Part shown: piece after piece, positions 4,300 to 31,325 of the stretch
Numbering within the stretch: the first letter of the stretch is position 1
Layout of the letters: each line of letters opens with the position of its first letter
Origin: Nanobdellota archaeon
Lineage (GTDB): Archaea > Nanobdellota > Nanobdellia > SCGC-AAA011-G17 > PNOQ01
DNA: 35,591 nucleotides
Direction: 5' to 3'
NCBI GenBank assembly: GCA_018829185.1
Contig: JAHJUI010000011.1
Coordinates: 1 to 35,591, forward strand
The notes under the pieces: model-generated
What the model was told of the DNA's origin: nothing
The model's database searches: none
The model's input: only the letters and a program-made list of their open reading frames with translations
Program-made: the position numbers and the translations under genes

Positions 4300-5499
4300 A
4301 TGAAATGGTTTATTATTCTTTTAATATTTGTATTATTAATTAGTTTAGTGCCAACTTCACAAGGTTTAGTTCCAAGTTCTCAGGAGATTACTGAAGAAGC
4401 TTCTACTTGTGGTGGAGATGCTCCTGGAATGTCAAATCCAGCTGCTGTTTATTGTATAGAATTAGGATATTCTTATGATAATGGTTTTTGTGTTTTTAAC
4501 AAAAATGAGAGATGTGAAGAATGGGCATTTTTACAAGGAAAATGTGGACAAAAATATTCTGTTTGTTCTACATTAGGTTTAAAGACCAAAATTAAAACTG
4601 ATGGTCAAAATCCTTTTACTCAAGAATATGTTGTTTGTACTTCTGGAAGAAAAGAAGTTGCTTCTGCTACTGATATGATTAATCTTAGTGAAAAATCAAC
4701 TAAAGGTTTCCAAGAAATTGTAGAAAAAGAAACAACTAAAAGAAAAGTTGAAAAGAAAATTGCTTTGCCTTTTGAATTTGATTGGAGAAATCATCGGGGC
4801 GAAGATTGGACAACTTCTGTAAAGAATCAAGGTACATGTGGAAGTTGCTGGGCTTTTGCAACTGTTGGTATTGTTGAGTCTGCCTATAATATATATAATA
4901 ATAATCCAGATTTAGATTTAGCAGAAGAATATTTAGTTTCTGATTGTCATTTGCAATATGGTTGGCAAACTTGTTGCGGAGGTTTTCAGCAATATGCATT
5001 AGATTTTATTCAAAGTGAAGGAATCCCAGATGAAGAATGTATGAATTATGTTTCTGGAAGTGGATGTTATTGCATTAGTGGAGCTTGTAATGCAAATTGT
5101 GAATATAGTTCTACATTACCTAGAACTTGTGCTGATACCACCTGTGACGATCGGTGTGAAGATTGGGATGAAAGATTGTATGATATTAATGATGCTACTT
5201 ACTTTAATATGAATTCTTCATTATCAAAAGATGAAATAAAACAATTTATTATTGAAAAAGGACCAGTTGCATCTAATATGTTATTTGGTTATGGTTATTG
5301 GGATGGAGATGTTTACAAATGTGAAAGTGCTTCACATGTTAACCATGCTGTTATTTTGGTTGGTTATAATGATATTGATAATTATTGGATTGTAAAGAAT
5401 AGTTATGGAGCTGGTTTTGGGGATGAAGGTTACTTTAAAGTTGCTTATGGTAATTGTTTTATTGATACTCCTGCTTGGCTTTCTTATGTTGAGCTTTAG
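4300..5499 (+). CDS. Secreted papain-family (C1A) cysteine protease with DUF333 domain
   Basis: A 399-residue exported protein. Residues 1-22 form a signal peptide. Residues about 40-85 match DUF333 (NPAAVYC...CVFNKNERCEEWAFLQGKC). The papain domain runs from about 158 to the end, with oxyanion-hole Gln177, nucleophile Cys183 (NQGTCGSCWAF), His349 (VNHAVILVGY) and Asn367 (WIVKNSYG), so it should be active. Many paired Cys suggest disulfides outside the cell. The region between DUF333 and the catalytic domain may act as an inhibitory pro-region. It has a leaderless promoter nearly identical to that of the subtilisin gene, so joint control is likely. Likely substrate: host or environmental proteins (inference). 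Confidence 0.93.
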   Translation: MKWFIILLIFVLLISLVPTSQGLVPSSQEITEEASTCGGDAPGMSNPAAVYCIELGYSYDNGFCVFNKNERCEEWAFLQGKCGQKYSVCSTLGLKTKIKTDGQNPFTQEYVVCTSGRKEVASATDMINLSEKSTKGFQEIVEKETTKRKVEKKIALPFEFDWRNHRGEDWTTSVKNQGTCGSCWAFATVGIVESAYNIYNNNPDLDLAEEYLVSDCHLQYGWQTCCGGFQQYALDFIQSEGIPDEECMNYVSGSGCYCISGACNANCEYSSTLPRTCADTTCDDRCEDWDERLYDINDATYFNMNSSLSKDEIKQFIIEKGPVASNMLFGYGYWDGDVYKCESASHVNHAVILVGYNDIDNYWIVKNSYGAGFGDEGYFKVAYGNCFIDTPAWLSYVEL

Positions 5500-5533: not shown

Positions 5534-5540
5534 GAGGTGA
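5534..5540 (+). promoter_or_regulatory. Shine-Dalgarno that decides a TTG start
   Basis: GAGGTGA is a perfect match to the 16S anti-SD core and lies 5 nt before TTG at 5546. The track's GTG start at 5537 lies inside this Shine-Dalgarno, so TTG 5546 is the better start and yields a clean signal peptide beginning KKLGLLLVL. Confidence 0.7.
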
Positions 5541-5545
5541 TTTAC

Positions 5546-7074
5546 TTGAAAAAATTAGGTTTATTATTAGTATTATTTTTGTTTATAATAAATATTTCTA
5601 TGGCATATGAATCTTTTATGCCTAGTTTTGCTATAGGTTCGGATGATAATGCTTATATTACGTGGGTGACATATAATCAAGATCCAGATGGAATTTATTA
5701 CTCCAAACACAGCGGTGTTGATGGGAGTCCTTTAGTAATGGAACCATTTATTGTTTCAGAAGTAAATGGCGCTGAAACTCCTTGGGTAGATGTTGATTCA
5801 AATGGAGATTCACATGTTGTTTGGACTGAGTATAGTCAGGATGGGCTTCTTTTTATGCTAAAGTGAGTGGATCTACTGGTGAAGTGATTAGGGAACTTAG
5901 AATTGAGGAAGGTGTAGGAGGATATACTTTTAGGGTAGCTTCAGTTGCAGTTGACGCTAACGGAGATGCGCACATAGTAGCTCATAATTATTATGATCAT
6001 AAACTTTATTATTATAAAATTGATGGTGTTACTGGGGGAGAAATAGTAAGTAAAATAATGATAAATACTGGTTCTTCTACTTGGCCAGACCAGTATGCAG
6101 ATTTGGATATTGATTCTTCAGGAGATGTTCACATAGTTTGGGCTGATGCCTTTGATGATTTACTTATGAAATACATTAAATTAGATGGTGACAATGGAAA
6201 TGTTTTGATTACCCAAAAGACACTCTATAATGGGGCAGGCGATGGATATGCTTCTGATTCAGCCATAGCAGTTGATGTTAATGGTGATGTGCATGTGGTT
6301 TGGGAATACGATAAAACGGCGGGTAATTATGATTTGATAAGTTATATTAAAGTAGATGGAACTACAGGAATTCCAATTATTCCAAGGATGGAAGTTAACT
6401 TTTCTTATACTAATTACCATTATAGGGATTATGTGCCGGATGTGGCAGTAGATTTTGAAGGTAATGTTCACATTGCTACTAGGTTTAAGTATGATTATGG
6501 AGATCCTTGGATAAGATATATAAAAATGGATGGAGATACTGCAGAAGATATAATCCCAGAGTTTAGAGTTACTGATGTAACTGCTGATCCTTATGTTGGT
6601 GTTTTGGATGTTGATTCAGTTGGGGATGTACATATTGTTTATCAAGATGACAATATTACTGGCGGAGATAGCTTTTTGGTTTACACTAAATTGAGTGGAA
6701 CAGATGCAAGTGTCATATTTGGTGATCAACCAATTGGTGATGTAGGAACAGGAATTCCAGAATGTGATTTAGGATTAGAATATGTTGTCCAATGTGGAGA
6801 AGTTTTTAATCCAGATTGTTTTGCAAATGATTGGGCGTGTTGTAGTGATGACCCCGGAGAATACTTAATAGAAGAAAATGGAGTAAAGAGATGTTGCAAT
6901 AATCCAAATGATAGAATAAATGCACAAGGTAATTGTGTAATGCCCACTTCAAAAATAAAGAAGACAGCTATGCCTAGATTTTCACCTCAAGAAGGATATA
7001 GTTGGTTATTGCCATTTGGAATTTTAATTGTAATATCTGTTTTGATTTATTTCTTTACAGTTAAGAAGAAATAA
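5546..7074 (+). CDS. Secreted seven-repeat beta-propeller protein, C-terminally anchored, frameshifted
   Basis: Two track ORFs (5537-5866 and 5863-7074) are one gene split by a missing T in the T-run at 5850-5854. With one T restored, FMLK-stop becomes FYAKVSGSTG and continues into the second ORF. The repaired protein has a signal peptide, then seven repeats with the signature D-x-x-G-D-x-H-[IV]-V (the first and sixth degenerate), as expected for a closed seven-bladed propeller; the break lies in blade 2. A Cys-rich stretch, the motif KKTAMPRFS, a single membrane helix (LLPFGILIVISVLIYFF) and a KKK end follow. The second ORF's own start is a GTG inside a blade without a ribosome site. Likely surface binding protein; ligand unknown. 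Confidence 0.8.
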
Positions 7075-14176: not shown

Positions 14177-16729
14177 ATGAGTAATAAATATGTTTATCTT
14201 GTATTATTTTTATTAGTTATACCAGTAATTCTTGCAGCAGGAAGTTTTTCTGTTTATCAAGGTCAGGATCCAGGTGGATTATGCCCTGGAACAACTGGAT
14301 TATTTACAGATGTAGTAACTAATGATGGTAGTGAACTAATGCAGTTTACTGTTTCTGGAAGCGGAAGTGCTTCAGCTATTTCTACTTTTGTACCAATGGG
14401 TTTTTCATTAAATCCTGGTCAATCTAAAACAGTTTATACCTATGTTACACCAAGAACAAGTACCAGGGTAGGCAATTATAATTTGGATTTAGTTATAAGT
14501 TCTAATGGCCAAAGTAAAGCACTTGGACATGATATTGTTGTTAAGAATTGTTTTGAATTTATCATAGAGGCTTTAGATACAGAAAAACATGTTTGTCCTT
14601 GTGAATCTGATAAATTTGATATAAAGATAATCAATAATGGAGATTATGTTCAATCTTATGATTTAAGTGTTGAAGGAGAAGCAGCAAATTCTGTAACTTT
14701 AAGCCAAGATAGAGTAAGCGTTGGTGCTGGAGAAACTAAAACAGTTTATGCTTATGTAAAAGCTGACTGTGATGATTTAGGAGAATATGGATTTACTGTA
14801 ATTGCCGATCCTGAAATTGGAAGTCTTGTACAATCTGTTTATGCTACGCTTGTGGTTGATCCTTGTTATGATTTCAATGTGCAAACAGATCAAGATTATG
14901 TAACTTTTTGCGAACATACTCAAAAAGTAATCCCAATTAAAGTAGTCAATCAAGGATCTACAAGTAATACTTATGACTTTGAAATTGATGGCCCTGCATG
15001 GGCTAATTTAGATGTTAATAAGAGGGATGTAGCTGCTGATGATTCTGGAATTGTTAACTTGATTTTAAGCCCAGATTATGGTATTGAAGGTGATTTTGAT
15101 GTCGGGTTTAAAGCTATAACCCAAAAAGGAGATTTAGAAGCTTCTAATATGTTTAATGTTAAAGTTGAAAAATGTCATGCAGTGGATGTAAGTATTCAAA
15201 AAGATTCTGATAAGATATGTAATTCATTAGAAAATACTTATGAAGTGAAAGTAAAAAATACTGGAACAACCGAAAAGACTTATAATATAGAATTATTGGC
15301 TCCTGACTGGGTTACATTACAAGGAGGAGATCTTACTCTTGATTCTGGTCAAGAATCTATTTTGACTTTAACTGTTGCTCCACAATATGATGTTGTTTCT
15401 GCAGCTTATCAAATTAAAGTAAGAGCAGTTGCGATAGATAGTGATAAATTATCTGGGGAAGATGTTTTAGCCATTACAACGGTTTCAGTAGATGAATGTT
15501 ATCAAGTTAAGATTGGAATAAATGAGAAGGACATTGAAGTACATTATGATGGAACTGCAACAGTTCCAATTGTAATTGAGAATAAAGGTACTTACAAAGC
15601 TAATTATGATTTGGGTGTTAGTGGTACTGCCTCAAGTTTTGTTTATTTGAATCCTGCTTCATTAGAAATTGATAAAGATAAAGCAGAGGTAATTTATTTG
15701 TATATTGCTCCAAATGCTCAAGTAGTGGATGGAGATTATGAAGCAAGTGTTTCTGTTAGACTTGGGGATAGCACAATTTTAGCTAGTGATACAATTAATA
15801 TTAAGGTTTTAGATAGTAAGGCAGTAGGTTTAGAAGAAATTACTGGAGAGGCAATTGAAGAGGTTGAAGGAGGTGCTTCTTTGTGGGCAAGAATTAAAGC
15901 TTTCTTTGTTAGATTATTTGAACAAAAAGAAGTTGAAGAACCTTTAGCTGAAATAGAAGATCTTCCAATTGAAGAAATCTTTGAGGAAGAAGTGGAAGGG
16001 GAACCAGTAGAAGAGGTAGTTGAAGAAGAATTAGTAGAAGAAGTTATTGAAGAACCTGTTGAAACTGAAAAATTAAATTTAGATGACATCAGCTTAGGAT
16101 CATATTTATTTGGTGGCGAGGGGACCAAATATGGTTTGATTGTAAATGGGGGGGAACATGAAGTTACTTTGCAAACTACTGGAGAAGATTATGTTGTTTT
16201 AGAGATTAGATCTGAATTAAAGACTTTAATCTTGGATGTTGGAGAGTCAAGATATTTAGATTTAGATGAAGACGGTAATCCGGACACTAAAGTAACTTTT
16301 AATGGATTTATTGATGGAGAAGCAGACATACAATTTGAGAAAATATCTGCAATTGTTAATGAACCTGTGGAAGAAGTAGTTGAAGAAATTCCTGAAGAGG
16401 AAATTATCGAAGAAATTACTGAAGAAACTACAACTGAAACAGAAGGTGAAGGTTTTGGTTTGATGAAATACAGATATCATTTCATTACAGTATTAGTAAT
16501 TTTGATATTGATATTGTTAGCGATAAAAACAAACTTCCATAAAAAATTGGTTGACTTTTTTGAAGAAGAAATTGAAGAAGAGGAAGTAGAAGTTGAACCG
16601 CAAAAAGAAGAAATACATGAAGAGAATAAGAAGTTTATGGAAGAATATGCTAATGAGGCTTTAGAAGAAGAGAAAAAGGTTAAAGAAAAACCTAAAGCAA
16701 AACCTAAAAAAACTAAAACAAAAAAATAA
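14177..16729 (+). CDS. Large membrane-anchored surface protein with five Ig-like repeats
   Basis: An 850-residue protein. A signal peptide (1-20, ILA-AGS) is followed by five ~100-residue strand repeats of the COG1470/NEW3 type to about residue 545; repeats 2-5 begin with Cys (CFEFII, CYDFNV, CHAVDV, CYQVKI) and most carry a second Cys, suggesting repeat-internal disulfides. Then come an amphipathic helix (LWARIKAFFVRLFEQ), a Glu/Val-rich linker, a small domain with a DLDEDGNPD calcium-type loop, a second Glu-rich linker, a membrane helix (FITVLVILILILLAI) and a cytosolic, highly charged tail ending in Lys. SD AAGGAGGGA and TATA (ATTTATAA) precede it. Probably links the envelope to the cell interior. 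Confidence 0.82.
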   Translation: MSNKYVYLVLFLLVIPVILAAGSFSVYQGQDPGGLCPGTTGLFTDVVTNDGSELMQFTVSGSGSASAISTFVPMGFSLNPGQSKTVYTYVTPRTSTRVGNYNLDLVISSNGQSKALGHDIVVKNCFEFIIEALDTEKHVCPCESDKFDIKIINNGDYVQSYDLSVEGEAANSVTLSQDRVSVGAGETKTVYAYVKADCDDLGEYGFTVIADPEIGSLVQSVYATLVVDPCYDFNVQTDQDYVTFCEHTQKVIPIKVVNQGSTSNTYDFEIDGPAWANLDVNKRDVAADDSGIVNLILSPDYGIEGDFDVGFKAITQKGDLEASNMFNVKVEKCHAVDVSIQKDSDKICNSLENTYEVKVKNTGTTEKTYNIELLAPDWVTLQGGDLTLDSGQESILTLTVAPQYDVVSAAYQIKVRAVAIDSDKLSGEDVLAITTVSVDECYQVKIGINEKDIEVHYDGTATVPIVIENKGTYKANYDLGVSGTASSFVYLNPASLEIDKDKAEVIYLYIAPNAQVVDGDYEASVSVRLGDSTILASDTINIKVLDSKAVGLEEITGEAIEEVEGGASLWARIKAFFVRLFEQKEVEEPLAEIEDLPIEEIFEEEVEGEPVEEVVEEELVEEVIEEPVETEKLNLDDISLGSYLFGGEGTKYGLIVNGGEHEVTLQTTGEDYVVLEIRSELKTLILDVGESRYLDLDEDGNPDTKVTFNGFIDGEADIQFEKISAIVNEPVEEVVEEIPEEEIIEEITEETTTETEGEGFGLMKYRYHFITVLVILILILLAIKTNFHKKLVDFFEEEIEEEEVEVEPQKEEIHEENKKFMEEYANEALEEEKKVKEKPKAKPKKTKTKK

Positions 16730-16790: not shown

Positions 16791-18047
16791 ATGAGGGGTG
16801 CATTATATTTATTTTTAGCAGTTTTTTTAGTTTTTATTATAGCTTTATCTGTTTTTAATGGTGGGATAACTGGAAAGGCAACTCTTCCTTCTGAACTTCC
16901 TGATCCTGATGATCCACCACCCCCGCCACCCCCCCCTGCAGATGATGGTGGAGACAATCCCGAATTTGATGGAGATTTACAAGATGTGTCTTTATCTCCC
17001 ATAATTAGTAGATTTATGGGTCTTGATGATGGTGAAACTTTAATTTCTATTAAACAATTTAGAGATATGAATAGAACTTTGGCCATTAAAGGAATTATAA
17101 TAAAAGTTACTTCTTCTCATGTTACGAAAATTGAAGATAAATGTGTTGATGCAACTACATTAAATCAATATTATATTGAAGATAAACAAGTTAAGATAGA
17201 AGAAATAAGATGTGAAAATAATTGTTATGATGGAAAATGTTTAGAATTTAGTTGTAGAGATTCTGATGGAGACAATGTAAACATACTTGGTTTTGTTGAG
17301 GGTGTTGGTCCTGAAAATAATATTTATTATATGGAAGATTATTGTGTTATGGATAATGTTAGAGAGTTTATTTGTGTAAATGATTTACCTCAAGATTATG
17401 ATTTCCTTTGTGAATTTGGTTGTGATTCTGGAAAATGTAAGAAAAGAATTCAAGAATTTTATGGATTTGATAGTGATGGACGTTATGCTTGGTTTACACC
17501 AGGATTTATAACTGGAAGAGATGAAAATGGAGATTTTAGAGAAGATGATAAATGCTATAATTCGTATATACTCACGGAGTTTTATTATACTGGGGCTAAA
17601 CTGAATGGGAAGGGGAAGGATTATATTGGTTGTTTTAATGGATGTAAAAATGGAGCTTGTATATCTTTAACTGAAGAGAATGAATATCATTCTATTTGTC
17701 TAGATCACTATTGTGCAAAAGTGGAAGGTCCTGGAGAAAATACCTGCTCTGCTAATGAAGATTGTGGCGGAGAAGAAGGATCTGGAATGTATAAAGCATT
17801 TGTTATGGAGGAGAATGGTACAAAAAAATGTGTATCAACTACTAAACCCGGGGAAGAACCTTGTTTAGAAGATGAACCTACAGATAAAATATATTGTTCT
17901 GATTTAGAAGGAGTTTCATGCGGAGAAGGAAGATGTGTTGGTAAGTATGTAGCTACTGATGATGTTCCACCAGTTAATTGTTGTGTTGGAACATGTTTGA
18001 ATCCATTTATCGCTGGATTAAATAATATTTTAAATAGTTTTTCTTAG
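16791..18047 (+). CDS. Pro- and Cys-rich membrane-anchored surface protein
   Basis: A 418-residue protein with an N-terminal membrane helix (LYLFLAVFLVFIIALSVF), the GITGKA motif also seen in spirit in the previous protein (EITGEA), a Pro-rich stalk and a long Cys-rich exterior (CxNNCYDGKC, CEFGCDSGKCKK, CFNGCKNGAC repeats). The spacing of Cys suggests repeated small disulfide domains. The stalk is encoded by C-runs including eight consecutive C at about 16929-16936, odd in this AT-rich genome. Leaderless promoter (GTTTTTAAAG) about 27 nt upstream. The stop codon overlaps the convergent smc stop. No family recognised; surface location is well supported. Confidence 0.75.
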   Translation: MRGALYLFLAVFLVFIIALSVFNGGITGKATLPSELPDPDDPPPPPPPPADDGGDNPEFDGDLQDVSLSPIISRFMGLDDGETLISIKQFRDMNRTLAIKGIIIKVTSSHVTKIEDKCVDATTLNQYYIEDKQVKIEEIRCENNCYDGKCLEFSCRDSDGDNVNILGFVEGVGPENNIYYMEDYCVMDNVREFICVNDLPQDYDFLCEFGCDSGKCKKRIQEFYGFDSDGRYAWFTPGFITGRDENGDFREDDKCYNSYILTEFYYTGAKLNGKGKDYIGCFNGCKNGACISLTEENEYHSICLDHYCAKVEGPGENTCSANEDCGGEEGSGMYKAFVMEENGTKKCVSTTKPGEEPCLEDEPTDKIYCSDLEGVSCGEGRCVGKYVATDDVPPVNCCVGTCLNPFIAGLNNILNSFS

Positions 18048-21000
18048 ATTTTTAAAGAAATAATTTTAGAAACGCCTTGTTGCATTGATACTCCATAGAC
18101 TTGGTGTGCTTCTGATATAATTGCGTCATTATGGGAAATTACAATATATTGGGCATTACTTGAATATTGATTGATTAGTTGTGATAATTTTTCTGAGTTT
18201 GTTTTGTCTAGTGCTGCATCTACTTCGTCTAATAAGTAGAATGAAGCTGGTTGTAGCTCTTGAATAGCAAAAATGAAAGCTAGAGCTGCTAATGTTTTTT
18301 CTCCACCTGAAAGACTCCTAATATCTAAGTATTTGTGTGTTCCATGTAATCTTACATTGATTTCTACTCCCCCCTCTAAAGGTTCTTCTTTATTTTCCAT
18401 TTCTAAGAAAGCTTCTCCTTTTTTTGTTAATAATGAGAAAATTTCTTGGAATTGACTTTTTAATTGTCTAAATGTTTTCATGAAAACTGCTGCTTTTTTA
18501 GAATCTATTTCAGCTATTAATGAAAGAACATCTTCTTTTTCTGATTTTAATTTTGCTTGTTTTTCTACTAATGATTTATGCTCTGTTTCTAATCTTTCAT
18601 ATACTTCTAAGGCACGCATGTTTACACTACCTAATCTTGCCACCATTGTTTCGAATTCTTTGATTTCTGTTTTTAATTGATCTAGGTTCATTCCTCTTCT
18701 TATCTTTCCATCTTTAAATTGTTCAAATTCTTCATTCAGACCATCTATTTTTGCGATTATGGTTGCTTTTTTAATTGATAGTTCATTTTTCTTTAGTTCT
18801 AATTGTCTTATTCTTTCATTTTCTTTATCTATGCCCAGTTCTTTATTTTGAATATCTTCTGAGAATTTATTTCTTTTTGTTGCTAGGTCTTTGAATTTTC
18901 CATAGAAATCAACTTCTTTCTTTTGTCTTTGTTTTAAATCTTTATTTTTTACAATTAATAGTTGGATTAAATTTGTTAATTCGTTTTTGAAATCTTCATT
19001 TTCTTTACCTTGGGATTTTAGAATTTGATCTATTCTTTGAGATTCTGTTTTTATCATTGAGACTTGATTATCTATATTTGTAATTTCAGATTTTTTATGA
19101 AGGATTTCTTCTTTAATTTTATTTTGTTTTTCATTTAAAGTGTTTAAACCAGAAGTAATTGTTGGATCTTTCATTAGTTTATCTCTGATTATTAATGATT
19201 GTTTTTTTAATTGAGTGATTTCATTGAAATTGGTTTTTAATTTATTTTCTACATCTTTTATGTCATTTGTTACTTCTTTTTGTTGGTTTTCTAAAGCTAT
19301 TTTTTCTTCTTCTATTTGGGTTATATCTATTTCTAATCCTAAGCTCTTTTCTAGCTTTATTATTGATCCTTCGTATTCTGCTTTTTCATGTCTTAAGTTT
19401 GTTATTTTTTCTTCTGCTTGATCTCTTTTTTCTCCTAAGCTAGTTATTATCTTTGATAATCTCGTTGTTTCTTGTTCCAATTCTTTTATTTTAATATTAA
19501 TTTCTTTTTCAGAGAATTTGCCTTGTTTTTTTCTGTAACCCCCAATCATTGCTCCACTTGGTTCCATCAAATCTCCTTCTAAAGTTACCATTCTAGTCCT
19601 TCCTATTCCTATTTTTCTTGCAGTTTCTATGTTATCTACAATTACAGTATTTCCTAGAACATATGAGAATATATTTTTGAATTTTAGATCATATTTTATT
19701 ACTTCATGAGCTAAACCTTTTATTCCCTCTGATTTTATGTTTTCTTGAGGTTTTCTAGCTTTTATTTTGTTAATTGGTAGGAAATTAACTACTCCTAACC
19801 TGTTTTGTTTTAGCATTTGTATTAACCTAGCTGCTGTTACATCATTATCTACTACTATGCTATTTGCTCTTGCCCCAGCTGCTACTTCAATTGCTAAAGA
19901 ATATTCTTGAGGTACTTCTGCTAAACTTGATACTAATCCGTAGACTCCCTTTTGTTTGTCTTTGATTATTTTCTTTATTGCTTGGTTATTTGATAAATGT
20001 GCTTGTTGACTTAGGTTTTTTGCCTTAAGTTCTGCTAAATTTTGATTTTCTGAAACTAATTTTGATCTTGCTGCATGAAGTTGGGTTGCTAGCATAGAAT
20101 CATCTGTAAGTCTTTTACTTAGTTCTTTTACTGAGTTTTCAAATTTAGTTTTTAATTCTTCTATTTTTGAAGAGTCTTTGCTTTCTTTTATTTTATTTAG
20201 GTTTACTTTTATGGTGTCTAAATGATAGGTTGCTTTATCTTTTTCTCTGACTAATTCTGCTTTTTCTTCTTGTAGTTCTTGAATATTATTTGAAACATAA
20301 TCTACTTTTTGTTCTATTTCTTCTATTTTTGTTGAGAAATCGCCTATGTTTTCAATTTTATGTTTTTTCTTAAATATTTGTAATTCTTTTAGAATTGTGT
20401 TTTCTGAGCTATGTATTTTTTCTATTTCATTTGTTATTTCTTTTTTATTTTTTGTTAATTCTGATATTTTTGTGTTTGTTTCATTTAAAGATGTTTTTAA
20501 TTGGATTGCTCTTGCTTTTATTTTTTCTATTTCATTTTGGACTGTTTCTTGTCTTGCATTGTATTTTGCAATATCTTCTTTTAAAGTGCTTATTTCATCT
20601 CTTAATAATAATTGTTCTTTTTCTCCTTTTTCTTCTAATTGAATGTTAATATTTGTGATTTCATTTCTTTTTTCTTGGATTGCGTTTTTTATTTCTAAGA
20701 GTCTTTTGTTTACTACATTTATGTTTGTATCATATTTACTTATTTCTGATAATACTTTATTTCTTCTTTCTTCGTTTTCTTTTATTTCAATATTGATTAA
20801 AGTTGCTTTGTTGTCTTTTAATCTCCCTTGTAGTTCTTTGTAACGTTTTGCTTGATCACGTTCTTTTTTTAATTGTTTTAGGTTAGATTCTCTTTCTGTT
20901 AGGATTATACCTGATGAATTTAATCTTTCTTGAACTTTGTCAAGTTCTTTTAATGATTTTTCTTTTTTATCTTCATATACTGAGATTCCTGCTATTTCTT

Positions 21001-23083
21001 CTATTACTTCTCTTCTTGCTTCTGGCTTCATTTCCATGAAATGTACAATATCTCCTTGGAGAATTACGTTGTGACCATCTGGGTCTATTCTGGCTGCTGA
21101 GAGAGTATCTACTATTTGTTGTCTTGTCATTTTTTGGTCATTTAATTTGTAGATAGAATTTCCGTTTGGTCTGACTATTCTTGTTACTCTTACTTCCTTG
21201 TCATCTACTGGAAATTCTTTTTGAGAATTGTCAAAATGTACAGATACTTTTGCTTCTTTTGCTGGTCTGTTCTTTTTTCCACCATTGTAGATTAGGTTTG
21301 CTGATTTTTCTGCTCTCATTGATTTAGCTGAAGATTTTCCTAAGACGAAGCATAAAGCGTCCATTACATTGCTGTTGTGTACAAAAATTCCATTTCCTAT
21401 AAAATTATGACAATTTGGAATTTTTAGGTCGTATACATATGGTTCTCCTTTTACTTTTTTGATTTCTACAATCTGATCCCAGAAAATATCTGAATTAGCT
21501 AAATTTTTTAGGATATTTATTGTTTCTTTAGCTTCTTTTAAACGAGTGTTTATTTCTTTTTTGATTAAGTTGTATAAATTCTCTGCGTTTTTTGGTTTAG
21601 GATTGAATTTTTTGTGAACCCAATAAATTGTTATTCCTTGTTTGTGTAATCCTATATTTTTGCTGCAATAATTGAATTTTAATCCTAAGCTTTTGATTGA
21701 ATTTAAGAGTGAATTTCTATCTTTTTTTAGGTTTTTCTTTGTTTTTTCAAATACTTTTATTTTGTTATTAAAAATTAAAAGTGCTTCGTTAATACCTTTC
21801 CTTGTTAAACAACATCTATTTTCATTGTATGCTGAGAGTCTAGGGTATTTTTTTCTTAAGGGTTTGTAACTTATACAAAGAACCTGTTGACATTCTTTAA
21901 TTAATTTATTTGCTTCTTTTGGTATAACATCTACATTTGGATTTGTTATAATATTTAATTTTGCCCATTTTTTTAATCTTTCTTTTTTATGTTTACATTT
22001 TAAGGGGATATTTTCGTATAATAATTTTAATTTTTCTTTTCCTTCTATTGTTATGTGGTAATATGTTCTTTTTGTTTTATTTTTTGTGTTTGTTGCATAT
22101 TTTAGTTTACCCTTTTTTCTTGCTACAATTCCAAATCTTAGCAATGATAATTGAACTTGATTGGCTAATCTTTCGTTTTTTGTAACAAATTCGAAAGTTG
22201 GGTTATCTTTTCTTATTGAAGCATCACAATCAAATAAAGCTCCTAAGAAATTGGCAATTATTTGGTTGTTTGAAATTAATAATTCTGGTGGAATGTTTTT
22301 GTATAAACACGTTACTTTGTCTTTTGCTCTGAACAGTCTTTTTAAGAAGTCTGGTAGATTTTTATTCCAATAAATCAATCTTGTTGCTTTTCCTACTTTT
22401 TTTTCATATTTCAGTTCTAAATTGAATAATTTTTTTGCTAGGTTTTTGAAATCATTTAGAACATTTTCATCCATATTTACTAGTTCTATTCTATCTTTTG
22501 TTATGTATCCATCTCCTGTTAGGTATCCAACGAATCTAGCTAGTTCTTTGTTTATTTTCTTTTTTTCAAATTTGATTTCTTTTTTTATGTTTAAATTTAT
22601 TTTTCTTGGGGTTGCTATAAAATCTCCTGTTTTTAGTTTTCCTACAACTTCTGATTGAATTTTTGAATCTTTTAGTATCATAATTGGGTGACAGGCGGTT
22701 GTAGTTACTTCTTTTCCTGTTTTTGTTATTAGGGTGTATAAATGGGGTTCTCCTTTTCTTTTTATAAATGCAGAAATATTTTTTTTGATGACTTTCATTG
22801 AATTTGGTTTTAAGCCAAAAGTGTGAACTTTTTCTGGATTTTCTGGAGTGTAAACCCCGTCATCTAGCTTGATGTGCAGATTAGACTTTTTAAGGGCATT
22901 TTCTACTATTTCTCCAATTGGTTTTAATTCTCCGTTTTGTAACAAAACTTGGGTATTATAACTACACGATTTCCCACTGCCATTTGGTCCTATAATTATG
23001 TTATAATTATTTCCGAAAATAAGCTCAGTGTGATTGGCAAATGATTTGAAACCTTTGGCTGTAAGTTTAGTTATAATAGTCAT
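18044..23083 (-). CDS. smc: Chromosome segregation SMC ATPase containing an intein
   Basis: A 1679-residue precursor. The N-terminal ATPase half carries the P-loop GPNGSGKS, interrupted by an intein; without it the SMC is 1147 residues, near the normal 1170. Then follow a coiled coil, hinge (GVYGLVSSLAEVPQEYSLAIEVAAG... GAMIGG), second coiled coil, and the C-terminal half with signature LSGGEKTLAALAF and Walker B FYLLDEVDAALD. SMC dimers compact and organise the chromosome. No scpA/scpB gene adjoins it. The start overlaps the end of the TrmB-like gene by 4 nt, so the two are co-transcribed. ATPase activity must depend on intein splicing since the P-loop is split. Confidence 0.96.
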   Translation of the reverse strand: MTIITKLTAKGFKSFANHTELIFGNNYNIIIGPNGSGKSCSYNTQVLLQNGELKPIGEIVENALKKSNLHIKLDDGVYTPENPEKVHTFGLKPNSMKVIKKNISAFIKRKGEPHLYTLITKTGKEVTTTACHPIMILKDSKIQSEVVGKLKTGDFIATPRKINLNIKKEIKFEKKKINKELARFVGYLTGDGYITKDRIELVNMDENVLNDFKNLAKKLFNLELKYEKKVGKATRLIYWNKNLPDFLKRLFRAKDKVTCLYKNIPPELLISNNQIIANFLGALFDCDASIRKDNPTFEFVTKNERLANQVQLSLLRFGIVARKKGKLKYATNTKNKTKRTYYHITIEGKEKLKLLYENIPLKCKHKKERLKKWAKLNIITNPNVDVIPKEANKLIKECQQVLCISYKPLRKKYPRLSAYNENRCCLTRKGINEALLIFNNKIKVFEKTKKNLKKDRNSLLNSIKSLGLKFNYCSKNIGLHKQGITIYWVHKKFNPKPKNAENLYNLIKKEINTRLKEAKETINILKNLANSDIFWDQIVEIKKVKGEPYVYDLKIPNCHNFIGNGIFVHNSNVMDALCFVLGKSSAKSMRAEKSANLIYNGGKKNRPAKEAKVSVHFDNSQKEFPVDDKEVRVTRIVRPNGNSIYKLNDQKMTRQQIVDTLSAARIDPDGHNVILQGDIVHFMEMKPEARREVIEEIAGISVYEDKKEKSLKELDKVQERLNSSGIILTERESNLKQLKKERDQAKRYKELQGRLKDNKATLINIEIKENEERRNKVLSEISKYDTNINVVNKRLLEIKNAIQEKRNEITNINIQLEEKGEKEQLLLRDEISTLKEDIAKYNARQETVQNEIEKIKARAIQLKTSLNETNTKISELTKNKKEITNEIEKIHSSENTILKELQIFKKKHKIENIGDFSTKIEEIEQKVDYVSNNIQELQEEKAELVREKDKATYHLDTIKVNLNKIKESKDSSKIEELKTKFENSVKELSKRLTDDSMLATQLHAARSKLVSENQNLAELKAKNLSQQAHLSNNQAIKKIIKDKQKGVYGLVSSLAEVPQEYSLAIEVAAGARANSIVVDNDVTAARLIQMLKQNRLGVVNFLPINKIKARKPQENIKSEGIKGLAHEVIKYDLKFKNIFSYVLGNTVIVDNIETARKIGIGRTRMVTLEGDLMEPSGAMIGGYRKKQGKFSEKEINIKIKELEQETTRLSKIITSLGEKRDQAEEKITNLRHEKAEYEGSIIKLEKSLGLEIDITQIEEEKIALENQQKEVTNDIKDVENKLKTNFNEITQLKKQSLIIRDKLMKDPTITSGLNTLNEKQNKIKEEILHKKSEITNIDNQVSMIKTESQRIDQILKSQGKENEDFKNELTNLIQLLIVKNKDLKQRQKKEVDFYGKFKDLATKRNKFSEDIQNKELGIDKENERIRQLELKKNELSIKKATIIAKIDGLNEEFEQFKDGKIRRGMNLDQLKTEIKEFETMVARLGSVNMRALEVYERLETEHKSLVEKQAKLKSEKEDVLSLIAEIDSKKAAVFMKTFRQLKSQFQEIFSLLTKKGEAFLEMENKEEPLEGGVEINVRLHGTHKYLDIRSLSGGEKTLAALAFIFAIQELQPASFYLLDEVDAALDKTNSEKLSQLINQYSSNAQYIVISHNDAIISEAHQVYGVSMQQGVSKIISLKI
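21374..22969 (-). mobile_element. LAGLIDADG intein inserted in the SMC Walker A motif
   Basis: A 532-residue intein, SMC precursor residues 39-570. It begins with Ser (SCSYNTQVLL, Thr at position 6 as in splicing block A), has a block B (TTTACHPIMI), two LAGLIDADG motifs (LARFVGYLTGDG and IANFLGALFDCDA, both with the catalytic Asp), and ends with block F/G, HNFIGNGIFVHN, followed by Ser+1. Cutting at Lys38/Ser39 and Asn/Ser exactly restores GPNGSGKSNVMDAL; a cut at the next Cys would leave an extra Ser. Both splicing and homing domains look intact, so it may be an active selfish element. Confidence 0.92.
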
Positions 23084-28236: not shown

Positions 28237-29832
28237 ATGAAAAAGAGGTTGTTATTGATATTAGTTTTAATTATTTTCATTTCTAGTTGTACTTCTATTG
28301 AAGAACCTTCATTAAGTCCTTCAAGAGGAATTACTTATTATGTCGACAAAGACGGTGTCTATGGTGGAACTTGTTCTAATTCGAATGATGGTCTTTCATG
28401 GAGCAGTCCTTGGTGCACAGCTGCTAAAGCCGGTTCTGCAGTCCTTCAGCCCGGAGATACTGTTAACTTTGCAGATGGAACTTACCCCATATATAGACAG
28501 GGAATAACTAGCAGCGGAACTGAAGGAAATCCGATAACTTACAAAGCATACGACAAGGAGGTAGTTTTGGACTGTGGAGGAGATAATGGGTGGTATATAA
28601 GCGGAGATGATTACCTAACTCTCGATGGCTTCAAGTTCCAGAATTGCAATAGCTGCATAAGTCTGCCATCATATGGGTTGACTGATATGACTGATATAAC
28701 TATCAAGAATATCTATGCGGGTTCGGGAGGTTGTGATGGGGGAATTGGTGAGTTGCAGGGTCTAGGTAATCTTGCTGTTGTCACAAATCTTGTGATTGAC
28801 AATATAACTTTCATCGATACAGGAGGTATCGGTCTGTGCGCAGGCAACTATGTTAACGGACCAAGTGTTAAAAACGCTGTTGTGAAAAATTCCTATTTTA
28901 AAGGGGGAGGGAATATTGGTATAGGCCGGGGGAATAATATAACTTATGTGAACAATATCATCATTGAACCTTCTGGCCATTCTTATGTTGTCGGATCAAA
29001 TTATGGTGGGGAACTCATTTGTGATGGGTATGTTTTTGCATCAAATATTATCATAGAAAATAACATATGCTTTAGATGTTATGACATGGCAACTTTTTGC
29101 GCTCAAAACATAAGTTATATACACAATACAGTAATCCAAGGTGTATGGAGGCCATACCCTAATTGCAGTGCAGCAAAAGGCTCTGGAATCCTTGTTAGCA
29201 ATGGATTTGGTCTAACACAAGAGAGCCTAATATTAAAAGATAATCTTTTTGCACAATGCAACACTTTAAGATTAGGTTCAGTTGGTTCAGGTTTAGAAAG
29301 CGACAATAATTATTTCTTTAATGTACATGGAAGTTATGAGTACCAAGGTTGTATCCCTGAACAAACAAATATTATTGATGGTGAAGGAGGGTATTATGCA
29401 TATCTTAATGACTGGCAATCAGAGACAGGACAGGATATGAACTCTAATCAAGTTTATGGAAATTATGCAGATGCAGATTTAGAAACTCTCCTTGTAAACC
29501 CATTAAACACAATAAATCCAAATTTCGCACCAAGAGAAGATAGTTGGCTTTGTCAGGAAGGTAATGAAGGCTCAGATGGAGAAACAATTGGAGCATTACC
29601 TTGCAGTGATCTAGTTCAAGAATGTTATGAAGGGACACCTTATGGGAGTTGTTCTGAAACACAACCTTGGTATTGCAATGAAGGTAATTTAGAACCTAAT
29701 TGCCAGGAATGTCTTTGCGCAAATGAATTTACATGCAGGTATGATGGTTTTTGTGTAGAATCAAAAAAATCAAGAAAGGCTATTGCAATGCCTTTGTTTT
29801 CAAACATTAAAAGTTTCCTTGATTTGTTTTAA
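28237..29832 (+). CDS. Secreted right-handed beta-helix protein with Cys-module C terminus
   Basis: A 531-residue exported protein. The N terminus has a hydrophobic segment ending FISSCTS, which looks like a lipobox (lipid-anchored Cys near 18). YYVDKDG...GGTCSNSNDGLSW and AGSAVLQPGDTVNFADGTY are typical of DUF1565-like beta-helix proteins, followed by many NxxI-type coils (IIENNICFRC, LILKDNLFAQC). Such proteins often bind or cleave polysaccharide; no catalytic residues can be assigned. The end has a Cys module (NCQECLCANEFTCRYDGFC) and the tail RKAIAMPLFS shared with the next gene. Its codons look richer in C and G than those of its neighbours. Leaderless promoter GATATATAAAC. Confidence 0.82.
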   Translation: MKKRLLLILVLIIFISSCTSIEEPSLSPSRGITYYVDKDGVYGGTCSNSNDGLSWSSPWCTAAKAGSAVLQPGDTVNFADGTYPIYRQGITSSGTEGNPITYKAYDKEVVLDCGGDNGWYISGDDYLTLDGFKFQNCNSCISLPSYGLTDMTDITIKNIYAGSGGCDGGIGELQGLGNLAVVTNLVIDNITFIDTGGIGLCAGNYVNGPSVKNAVVKNSYFKGGGNIGIGRGNNITYVNNIIIEPSGHSYVVGSNYGGELICDGYVFASNIIIENNICFRCYDMATFCAQNISYIHNTVIQGVWRPYPNCSAAKGSGILVSNGFGLTQESLILKDNLFAQCNTLRLGSVGSGLESDNNYFFNVHGSYEYQGCIPEQTNIIDGEGGYYAYLNDWQSETGQDMNSNQVYGNYADADLETLLVNPLNTINPNFAPREDSWLCQEGNEGSDGETIGALPCSDLVQECYEGTPYGSCSETQPWYCNEGNLEPNCQECLCANEFTCRYDGFCVESKKSRKAIAMPLFSNIKSFLDLF

Positions 29833-29845
29833 CTTAATAGTAGTT

Positions 29846-29878
29846 ACAAATAGAAAGATTTATAAAGAGTAAATTTTA
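29846..29878 (+). promoter_or_regulatory. Leaderless promoter shared with the papain-like gene
   Basis: TTTATAAA at 29859-29866 lies 23-30 nt before the subtilisin ATG. The 33-bp block matches 4254-4286 at 32 of 33 positions; the bases outside it do not match, so this is a conserved module rather than a large duplication. Confidence 0.8.
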
Positions 29879-29888
29879 ATATAAGTAT

Positions 29889-31325
29889 ATGAAATTCAAA
29901 TTTTTAATTGGACTAATATTGATTATATTATTAGTATTTCCAACAGTTTTATCTAAACAAGAAACTACAAATTTTGTTTCAGATTCTTTGATAGTCAAGC
30001 TTAATTCTAAAATGAATTTAAATGAAATTAAAAATTTAGATCCAAATATTATAAATGTAGATTATTTATTTGGAGATTCAAAATCACTGGATAATAGAGC
30101 TAAAAACTTAGAAATGGATACTTTTTATATTGTAAAATTAAAAGAAAATTCAAATATTACAAAAATTGCTGAAAAACTTTCTAAAAATAGTAAAGTAGAA
30201 AGTGTTGAATTTGATTATTTTGATGAATTAACAATGACCCCAAATGATCAATATTTCTTTTCTGGTGGAGGATTTTTCGGACAATGGAATTTATATAATT
30301 ATGGACAGCAAATTTTTCCAGGAGTATTTGGAATTAGTGGTGTAGATGTTGATGCACGTAAAGCATGGGATATTGAAACAGGGAATCCTGATGTTTTAAT
30401 TGCAGTACTTGATACAGGAGTTAATTATAACCACGCTGATTTAAGAAATAAAATATCAGATATTAGATATGATTTTGTTGATGAAGATAATGACCCCATG
30501 GACCAAAATGGCCATGGAACTTCTATTTCCGGGATGGCTGGTGCTCAAACTAATAATAATATAGGCATTGCCAGCTTATGCCCAGAATGTACAATAGTTC
30601 CTGTTAGAGTTTGTACTTCTTCATGTTTGTCTAGTAATGTAATTCAAGGAATTTATTTTGCTGTAGATAATGATGTAGATGTAATAAGTATGAGTTTTGG
30701 TGGTTATGATTCAGATTGCTCAAGAACCAATGGTTATGATATAGCAATCCAATATGCTTATGAAAATGGAGTTACTTTAGTGGCAGGAGCAGGTAATGAT
30801 TATTCTAGTAGTTCTTTTTATCCTGCTTGTAGGCCAGAAGTAATAAGTGTTGCAGGACATGGGGCATCTGGACAGATAAATCAATCTAATTATGGAAATT
30901 GGGTAGATGTTGCTGCGCCAAATGTACTTATTTTAACTACTGTTTTAAGCGGGGGATATGGACTTGGTGGTGGCACTTCAATAGCTGCACCCCAAGTATC
31001 TGCTTTAATAGGATTATTAATTTCTAGTCATGGAGATATAACTCCAGATAAGGCAAAAGAATTTGTAATGCTTACTTCAGAGGAATTAGATTGGGATGAA
31101 ACTCCAATAAATTCTGGAAGGATAAATGCTTATAATGCATTAAGTGCGTGTTTTATTGACAATGAAATTATTTTAAACCAAGTTTGTGTTGATGATGGAC
31201 CAAAAATGTGTTTTGAACAAGAATTAATTTCAAACTGTCAAGAATGTAGTTGTCCTACAGGTAAATATTGTATGTCTAATGGTGAGTGTAGTAAATATAA
31301 AGTTGCTGTTCCTTTTTATTTATAG
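29889..31325 (+). CDS. Secreted subtilisin-like (S8) serine protease
   Basis: A 478-residue exported protease. Residues 1-22 are a signal peptide and about 30-112 an I9-type pro-peptide (SDSLIVKLNS...KVESVEFDY). The S8 domain has the full triad, Asp175 (IAVLDTGVNYNHADL), His209 (QNGHGTSISGMAG) and Ser364 (GGTSIAAPQVS), with oxyanion Asn303 (AGAGND). A C-terminal Cys module (NCQECSCPTGKYCMSNGEC) ends in YKVAVPFYL, as in the beta-helix protein just upstream. There is no membrane anchor. Its promoter is nearly identical to that of the papain-like protease. Probably digests proteins outside the cell, for uptake or for attack on another cell (inference). Confidence 0.94.
   Translation: MKFKFLIGLILIILLVFPTVLSKQETTNFVSDSLIVKLNSKMNLNEIKNLDPNIINVDYLFGDSKSLDNRAKNLEMDTFYIVKLKENSNITKIAEKLSKNSKVESVEFDYFDELTMTPNDQYFFSGGGFFGQWNLYNYGQQIFPGVFGISGVDVDARKAWDIETGNPDVLIAVLDTGVNYNHADLRNKISDIRYDFVDEDNDPMDQNGHGTSISGMAGAQTNNNIGIASLCPECTIVPVRVCTSSCLSSNVIQGIYFAVDNDVDVISMSFGGYDSDCSRTNGYDIAIQYAYENGVTLVAGAGNDYSSSSFYPACRPEVISVAGHGASGQINQSNYGNWVDVAAPNVLILTTVLSGGYGLGGGTSIAAPQVSALIGLLISSHGDITPDKAKEFVMLTSEELDWDETPINSGRINAYNALSACFIDNEIILNQVCVDDGPKMCFEQELISNCQECSCPTGKYCMSNGECSKYKVAVPFYL

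Follow-up and report, generated by a model that had tools for sequence, protein, structure and literature searches.

C-terminal segments borne by unrelated secreted proteins are known from archaeosortase/PGF-CTERM and other three-part CTERM signals (MYXO-CTERM, PMC11980579; GlyGly-CTERM, PMC6219818), and in the type IX secretion of Bacteroidetes one C-terminal domain is found on unrelated secreted enzymes. The arrangement described here, an eight-Cys module followed by a short A-[MV]-P-x-[FY] tail, likewise ends unrelated secreted proteins, and in one of these the motif is followed by a membrane helix and a basic end as in the CTERM signals. It differs from the CTERM systems in that three of the four tails are without a membrane helix, that no exosortase or archaeosortase was found in the genome and that the CTERM models miss the proteins of the window. 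Unlike the type IX domains, the module is also found in N-terminal and internal positions, and its host is an archaeon. In being short, with eight conserved Cys, single or in tandem and attached to varied secreted domains, it resembles EGF-like and antistasin/TIL-type modules, but it is without a curated Pfam family (23 members scanned), a PDB sequence or a significant fold match and was seen here solely in DPANN archaea. The pattern is real: a secreted Cys-rich domain, widespread and unnamed, is combined with a genome-private, probably selected tail.

The source organism is a small DPANN archaeon of the Woesearchaeota type, and the genome searched comprises 826,748 bases in 27 contigs (96% complete). 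The window, which is the whole stretch of 35,591 nucleotides that was analysed, encodes three of the tail proteins on its plus strand, two of them in neighbouring genes. One of the neighbours (28237-29832) encodes a secreted beta-helix protein of 531 amino acids with a weak Chondroitinase B-like match and an apparent lipobox, ISSC, at the N-terminus. Its C-terminal sequence in translation (NCQECLCANEFTCRYDGFCVESKKSRKAIAMPLFS) contains the eight-Cys module (29623-29754, placed by module profile and alignment), the tail RKAIAMPLFS (29773-29802, from translation and the genome pattern search) and a short Phe/Leu-rich end translated as NIKSFLDLF (29803-29829). The other neighbour (29889-31325) encodes a secreted subtilase of 478 amino acids with a Peptidase_S8 domain (PF00082, E=7.2e-42). 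Its translated C-terminus (NCQECSCPTGKYCMSNGECSKYKVAVPFYL) contains a module with a longer first loop than usual (31149-31289) and the tail KVAVPFY (31299-31319), after which one residue precedes the stop. The eight-Cys segments of both proteins can be aligned and are followed by RKAIAMPLFS and YKVAVPFYL, respectively.

The third protein is a secreted, propeller-like protein (5537-7074) whose coding sequence breaks into two frames near 5842 (GATGGGCTT); the gene may be a pseudogene or truly frameshifted, or the break may stem from a sequencing error. The second-frame ORF (5863-7074, tail in translation KIKKTAMPRFSPQEGYSWLLPFGILIVISVLIYFFTVKKK) contains a degenerate Cys-rich region at the place of the module (6832-6951, module profile E=0.0016), the tail KIKKTAMPRFS (6952-6984, from translation and paralog alignment) and, in translation, a membrane helix with KKK (7003-7071). 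The whole-genome search gave a fourth tail protein, a propeller on contig C2 that is a paralog of the window propeller (40% identical), has an intact reading frame and, at its C-terminus, an intact module followed by KKTAMPLFS. All matches obtained when this paralog was searched against the order were to the module alone. The combination of motif, membrane helix and basic end is found in the window propeller only and not in the beta-helix protein, the subtilase or the C2 propeller.

The original prediction of one C-terminal cassette on unrelated secreted proteins is thereby confirmed for the beta-helix protein, the subtilase and the propellers, and the three tails that it quoted are all present in the translations. 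The motif that it gave, K-x-A-[MV]-P-x-[FY], is real but has to be widened to K-x(1,2)-A-[MV]-P-x-[FY], as the Lys of the beta-helix protein is at -3 from the Ala. The propeller was rightly included, with KKTAMPRFS before its membrane helix, but its locus (5863-7074) is outside the region 28237-31325 that had been stated for the pattern. The tail is not confined to two neighbours, since it occurs in four proteins on two contigs, and the full K-x-A-[MV]-P-x-[FY] motif was seen C-terminally in no cytosolic gene of the genome; one soluble protein (L118) has AAVPSY 19 residues before its end.

The consensus of the module is C-x-DGT-x4-C-S-x2-KP-x-YC-x2-G-x-L-x3-C-x2-CGCP-x-G-x2-C-x2-DG-x-C. Cys4 and Cys7 were both missing in five of 71 fully scored modules, with no case of a single loss, and two further gapped modules agree (Cys4 missing, gap at Cys7). 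This joint loss implies a disulfide that is likely formed between the two residues. AlphaFold2 modelling gave a pLDDT of 92-94 for the module (residues 11-50) and of 53-55 for the tail, which is predicted to be flexible. No family exceeded the cut-off when 23 module members were scanned against Pfam (best E=0.064, families inconsistent), the PDB sequence search with the module gave zero matches and a Foldseek search of the module model (pLDDT >90) against PDB gave nothing significant (best E=7.8). The module was not described anywhere in the literature found by our searches.

A first profile built from three tails and, for the phylum scan, a deeper alignment were used to map the distribution of the module. 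Ten matches were found in the genome itself by profile search, and the module was present in 34 of 61 relatives and, across the phylum, in 111 of 371 genomes. It is placed N-terminally, internally, in tandem or C-terminally in secreted proteins, some of which have Ig-like or Rhs-like parts. When 85,462 species were scanned, the named carriers of close copies were all DPANN or unnamed archaea, in genomes labelled Woesearchaeota, Nanoarchaeota or archaeon, and none of the virus contigs encoded the module. Among 30 relatives of the subtilase, many of them cut before the C-terminus, the only other C-terminal module was in a genome of the same family (G001), with a tail, KHSQRINLFELISNLFSK, unlike that of the window protein. 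A further beta-helix protein (L133) has the module in common with the window protein and nothing else. Because its position in secreted proteins varies, the module is a mobile domain rather than a tail signal, and the claim that it is part of a sorting tail does not hold.

Two groups of module proteins were also observed. One comprises five similar secreted proteins of about 280-300 amino acids from different genera (L018, L023, L024, L026 and L032), in which a tandem pair of modules is combined with a C-terminus that is amphipathic and rich in Phe. The other consists of two paralogs (L012 and L013, on C13 and C26) with a signal peptide, one module, an Rhs-type repeat core and differing C-terminal ends. 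An Rhs-type core with varying C-terminal ends is a layout typical of polymorphic toxins.

Chance likeness among short hydrophobic C-termini is the least probable of the explanations for the tail, even though the motif, a short one, was defined post hoc and a look-alike, KKIALPFEF, exists in a papain-family protease of the window (4300-5499). The look-alike was rejected as a tail, since mature proteins of that family usually begin in this way. A search of the genome for A-[IMV]-P-x-[FY] gave 31 places, compared with 5 for the reversed control; 30 of the 31 were read in frame, and those within the 35 C-terminal residues of a secreted protein were exactly the four tails, all of them in module proteins or their paralog. 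Rough arithmetic, with about 10 other in-frame genuine matches, about 248,000 codons and about 130 secreted proteins, gives an expectation of about 0.2 by chance. The C2 protein, which was absent from the data behind the original prediction, was moreover recovered only later, with the pattern taken from the window. That the tail occurs in this genome solely in module-bearing proteins or their paralog, and that the beta-helix and subtilase genes are adjacent, would also fit plain inheritance, with the tail as a neutral passenger whenever the module was copied between genes. This is unlikely, although less so than the other alternatives. In the propeller pair the tail stretch is identical at 9 of 11 positions, compared with 40% overall, and is among the best windows of the alignment, yet the codons differ at five of the eight identical tail residues, which is comparable to 65 of 135 elsewhere; the four cassettes have a mean DNA column identity of 55%. 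Since codons drifted while residues stayed, the tail appears to have been kept at the protein level and not copied recently, and a neutral passenger of such age would be expected to decay, so that its retention speaks against this explanation. Selection is probably acting on the tail, as suggested by few data: four sequences, two of these from paralogs.

A sorting signal that an undescribed membrane enzyme recognises and either cleaves or links to some component of the surface, in the manner of archaeosortase, rhombosortase or myxosortase, would agree with a tail that is common to three unrelated protein types and retained despite codon drift, and with the three-part layout of motif, membrane helix and KKK in the window propeller. 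It is nevertheless quite improbable, as the membrane helix is missing after three of the four tails and K-x-A-M-P-x-F was found as the C-terminus of a secreted protein in 0 of 98 relatives; as far as these data go, the tail appears private to its own genome among the genomes compared. The exosortase/archaeosortase family PF09721 had no match at E<=10 in the genome, while controls such as M. jannaschii did match, and the single match to the sortase family PF04203 (14.4 bits) was below the cut-off. This sortase candidate was rejected, since it sits inside a phosphoglycerate-mutase-like ORF. NCBIfam includes many CTERM models, and nothing CTERM-like was found with it in the window proteins. A protein on C13 had weak NCBIfam matches to LPXTG_anchor (E=0.066) and sorting_LPXTATN (E=0.16), both below the cut-offs and located on a hydrophobic segment. 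As neither an exosortase/archaeosortase nor a credible sortase was found, a dedicated sorting signal is unsupported, and the sorting or cleavage system with a co-occurring enzyme gene that had been suggested is not borne out in this genome. Even less probable is a variant in which the tail is recognised by an undescribed DPANN enzyme for C-terminal processing or attachment, with fast-evolving, lineage-specific signals and the module positioning the tail outside the cell.

The explanation that we favour, and regard as fairly probable, is a mobile disulfide-rich surface domain combined with a lineage-private, membrane-proximal tail; the pattern looks less like a new sorting system than like domain shuffling to which a local linker for surface attachment has been added. 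The module would be a small extracellular domain closed by disulfides, including the putative Cys4-Cys7 bond. In DPANN archaea it would have been shuffled among adhesin-like proteins and secreted enzymes, and at the cell surface it may provide a stable spacer or bind a ligand. The tail, K-x-A-[MV]-P-x-[FY], would be a flexible extension past the module that was copied with it in this lineage, reaching two or more kinds of protein, and has been kept by selection. It most likely serves either as a linker close to the membrane or as a segment for peripheral attachment, adjoining a membrane helix in the window propeller and a Phe-rich amphipathic end in the C2 propeller and the beta-helix protein, and may be the local version of the membrane-proximal or peripheral attachment ends of relatives.

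The C-terminal modules of relatives are mostly followed by short amphipathic, Phe-rich ends or by a membrane helix (L018, L023, L024, L026, L032, L137 and L009), with ends such as LFQKIADFFKNLF, LFARWFRELFKI, FFNFLKALFF, FLGGFFKFVKGLF and NLFELISNLFSK. In a half-genome sample (400 kb plus the window), at least three Phe or Trp in the last 15 residues were found in 11 of 55 secreted proteins lacking a C-terminal membrane helix and in 21 of 347 soluble proteins (Fisher p=0.0016, with a post hoc threshold). The hydrophobic moment alone showed no enrichment of the secreted set (4/55 compared with 26/347 soluble). Against an attachment role, the subtilase tail stops at VAVPFYL without a helix or an amphipathic end. 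An extra C-terminal anchor on the beta-helix protein may be superfluous because of its N-terminal lipobox-like ISSC.

About 30% of the sampled genomes of the phylum encode surface proteins marked by the module, yet neither a Pfam model nor a solved structure exists for it. A named family would make it easier to annotate the secreted enzymes through which these archaea, small and probably dependent on a host, influence their environment. The tail would matter only if it were a true processing or attachment signal.

Another motif, [IVFT]TG-x-[AV]-[VIAT] (ITGNAV, ITGAAI, TTGLAV), is located beside the membrane helices of secreted, anchored proteins in this order and is perhaps of more interest than the A-[MV]-P-x-[FY] tail. 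In anchored proteins 13 of 18 matches were near a predicted helix; the corresponding number for six look-alike motifs was 0-3 each, and soluble proteins had three matches only. The motif is found in two proteins of the window, encoded at 16791-18047 (ITGKAT, amino acid 26) and 14177-16729 (ITGEAI, amino acid 555), and also in L142, L151, L152, L157, L220, L233 and L234. The translation of an SMC-like ATPase gene of the window (18044-23083) has an in-frame, intein-like insert after GPNGSGKS that begins with SCSYNTQVLLQNG and ends with VHNSN.
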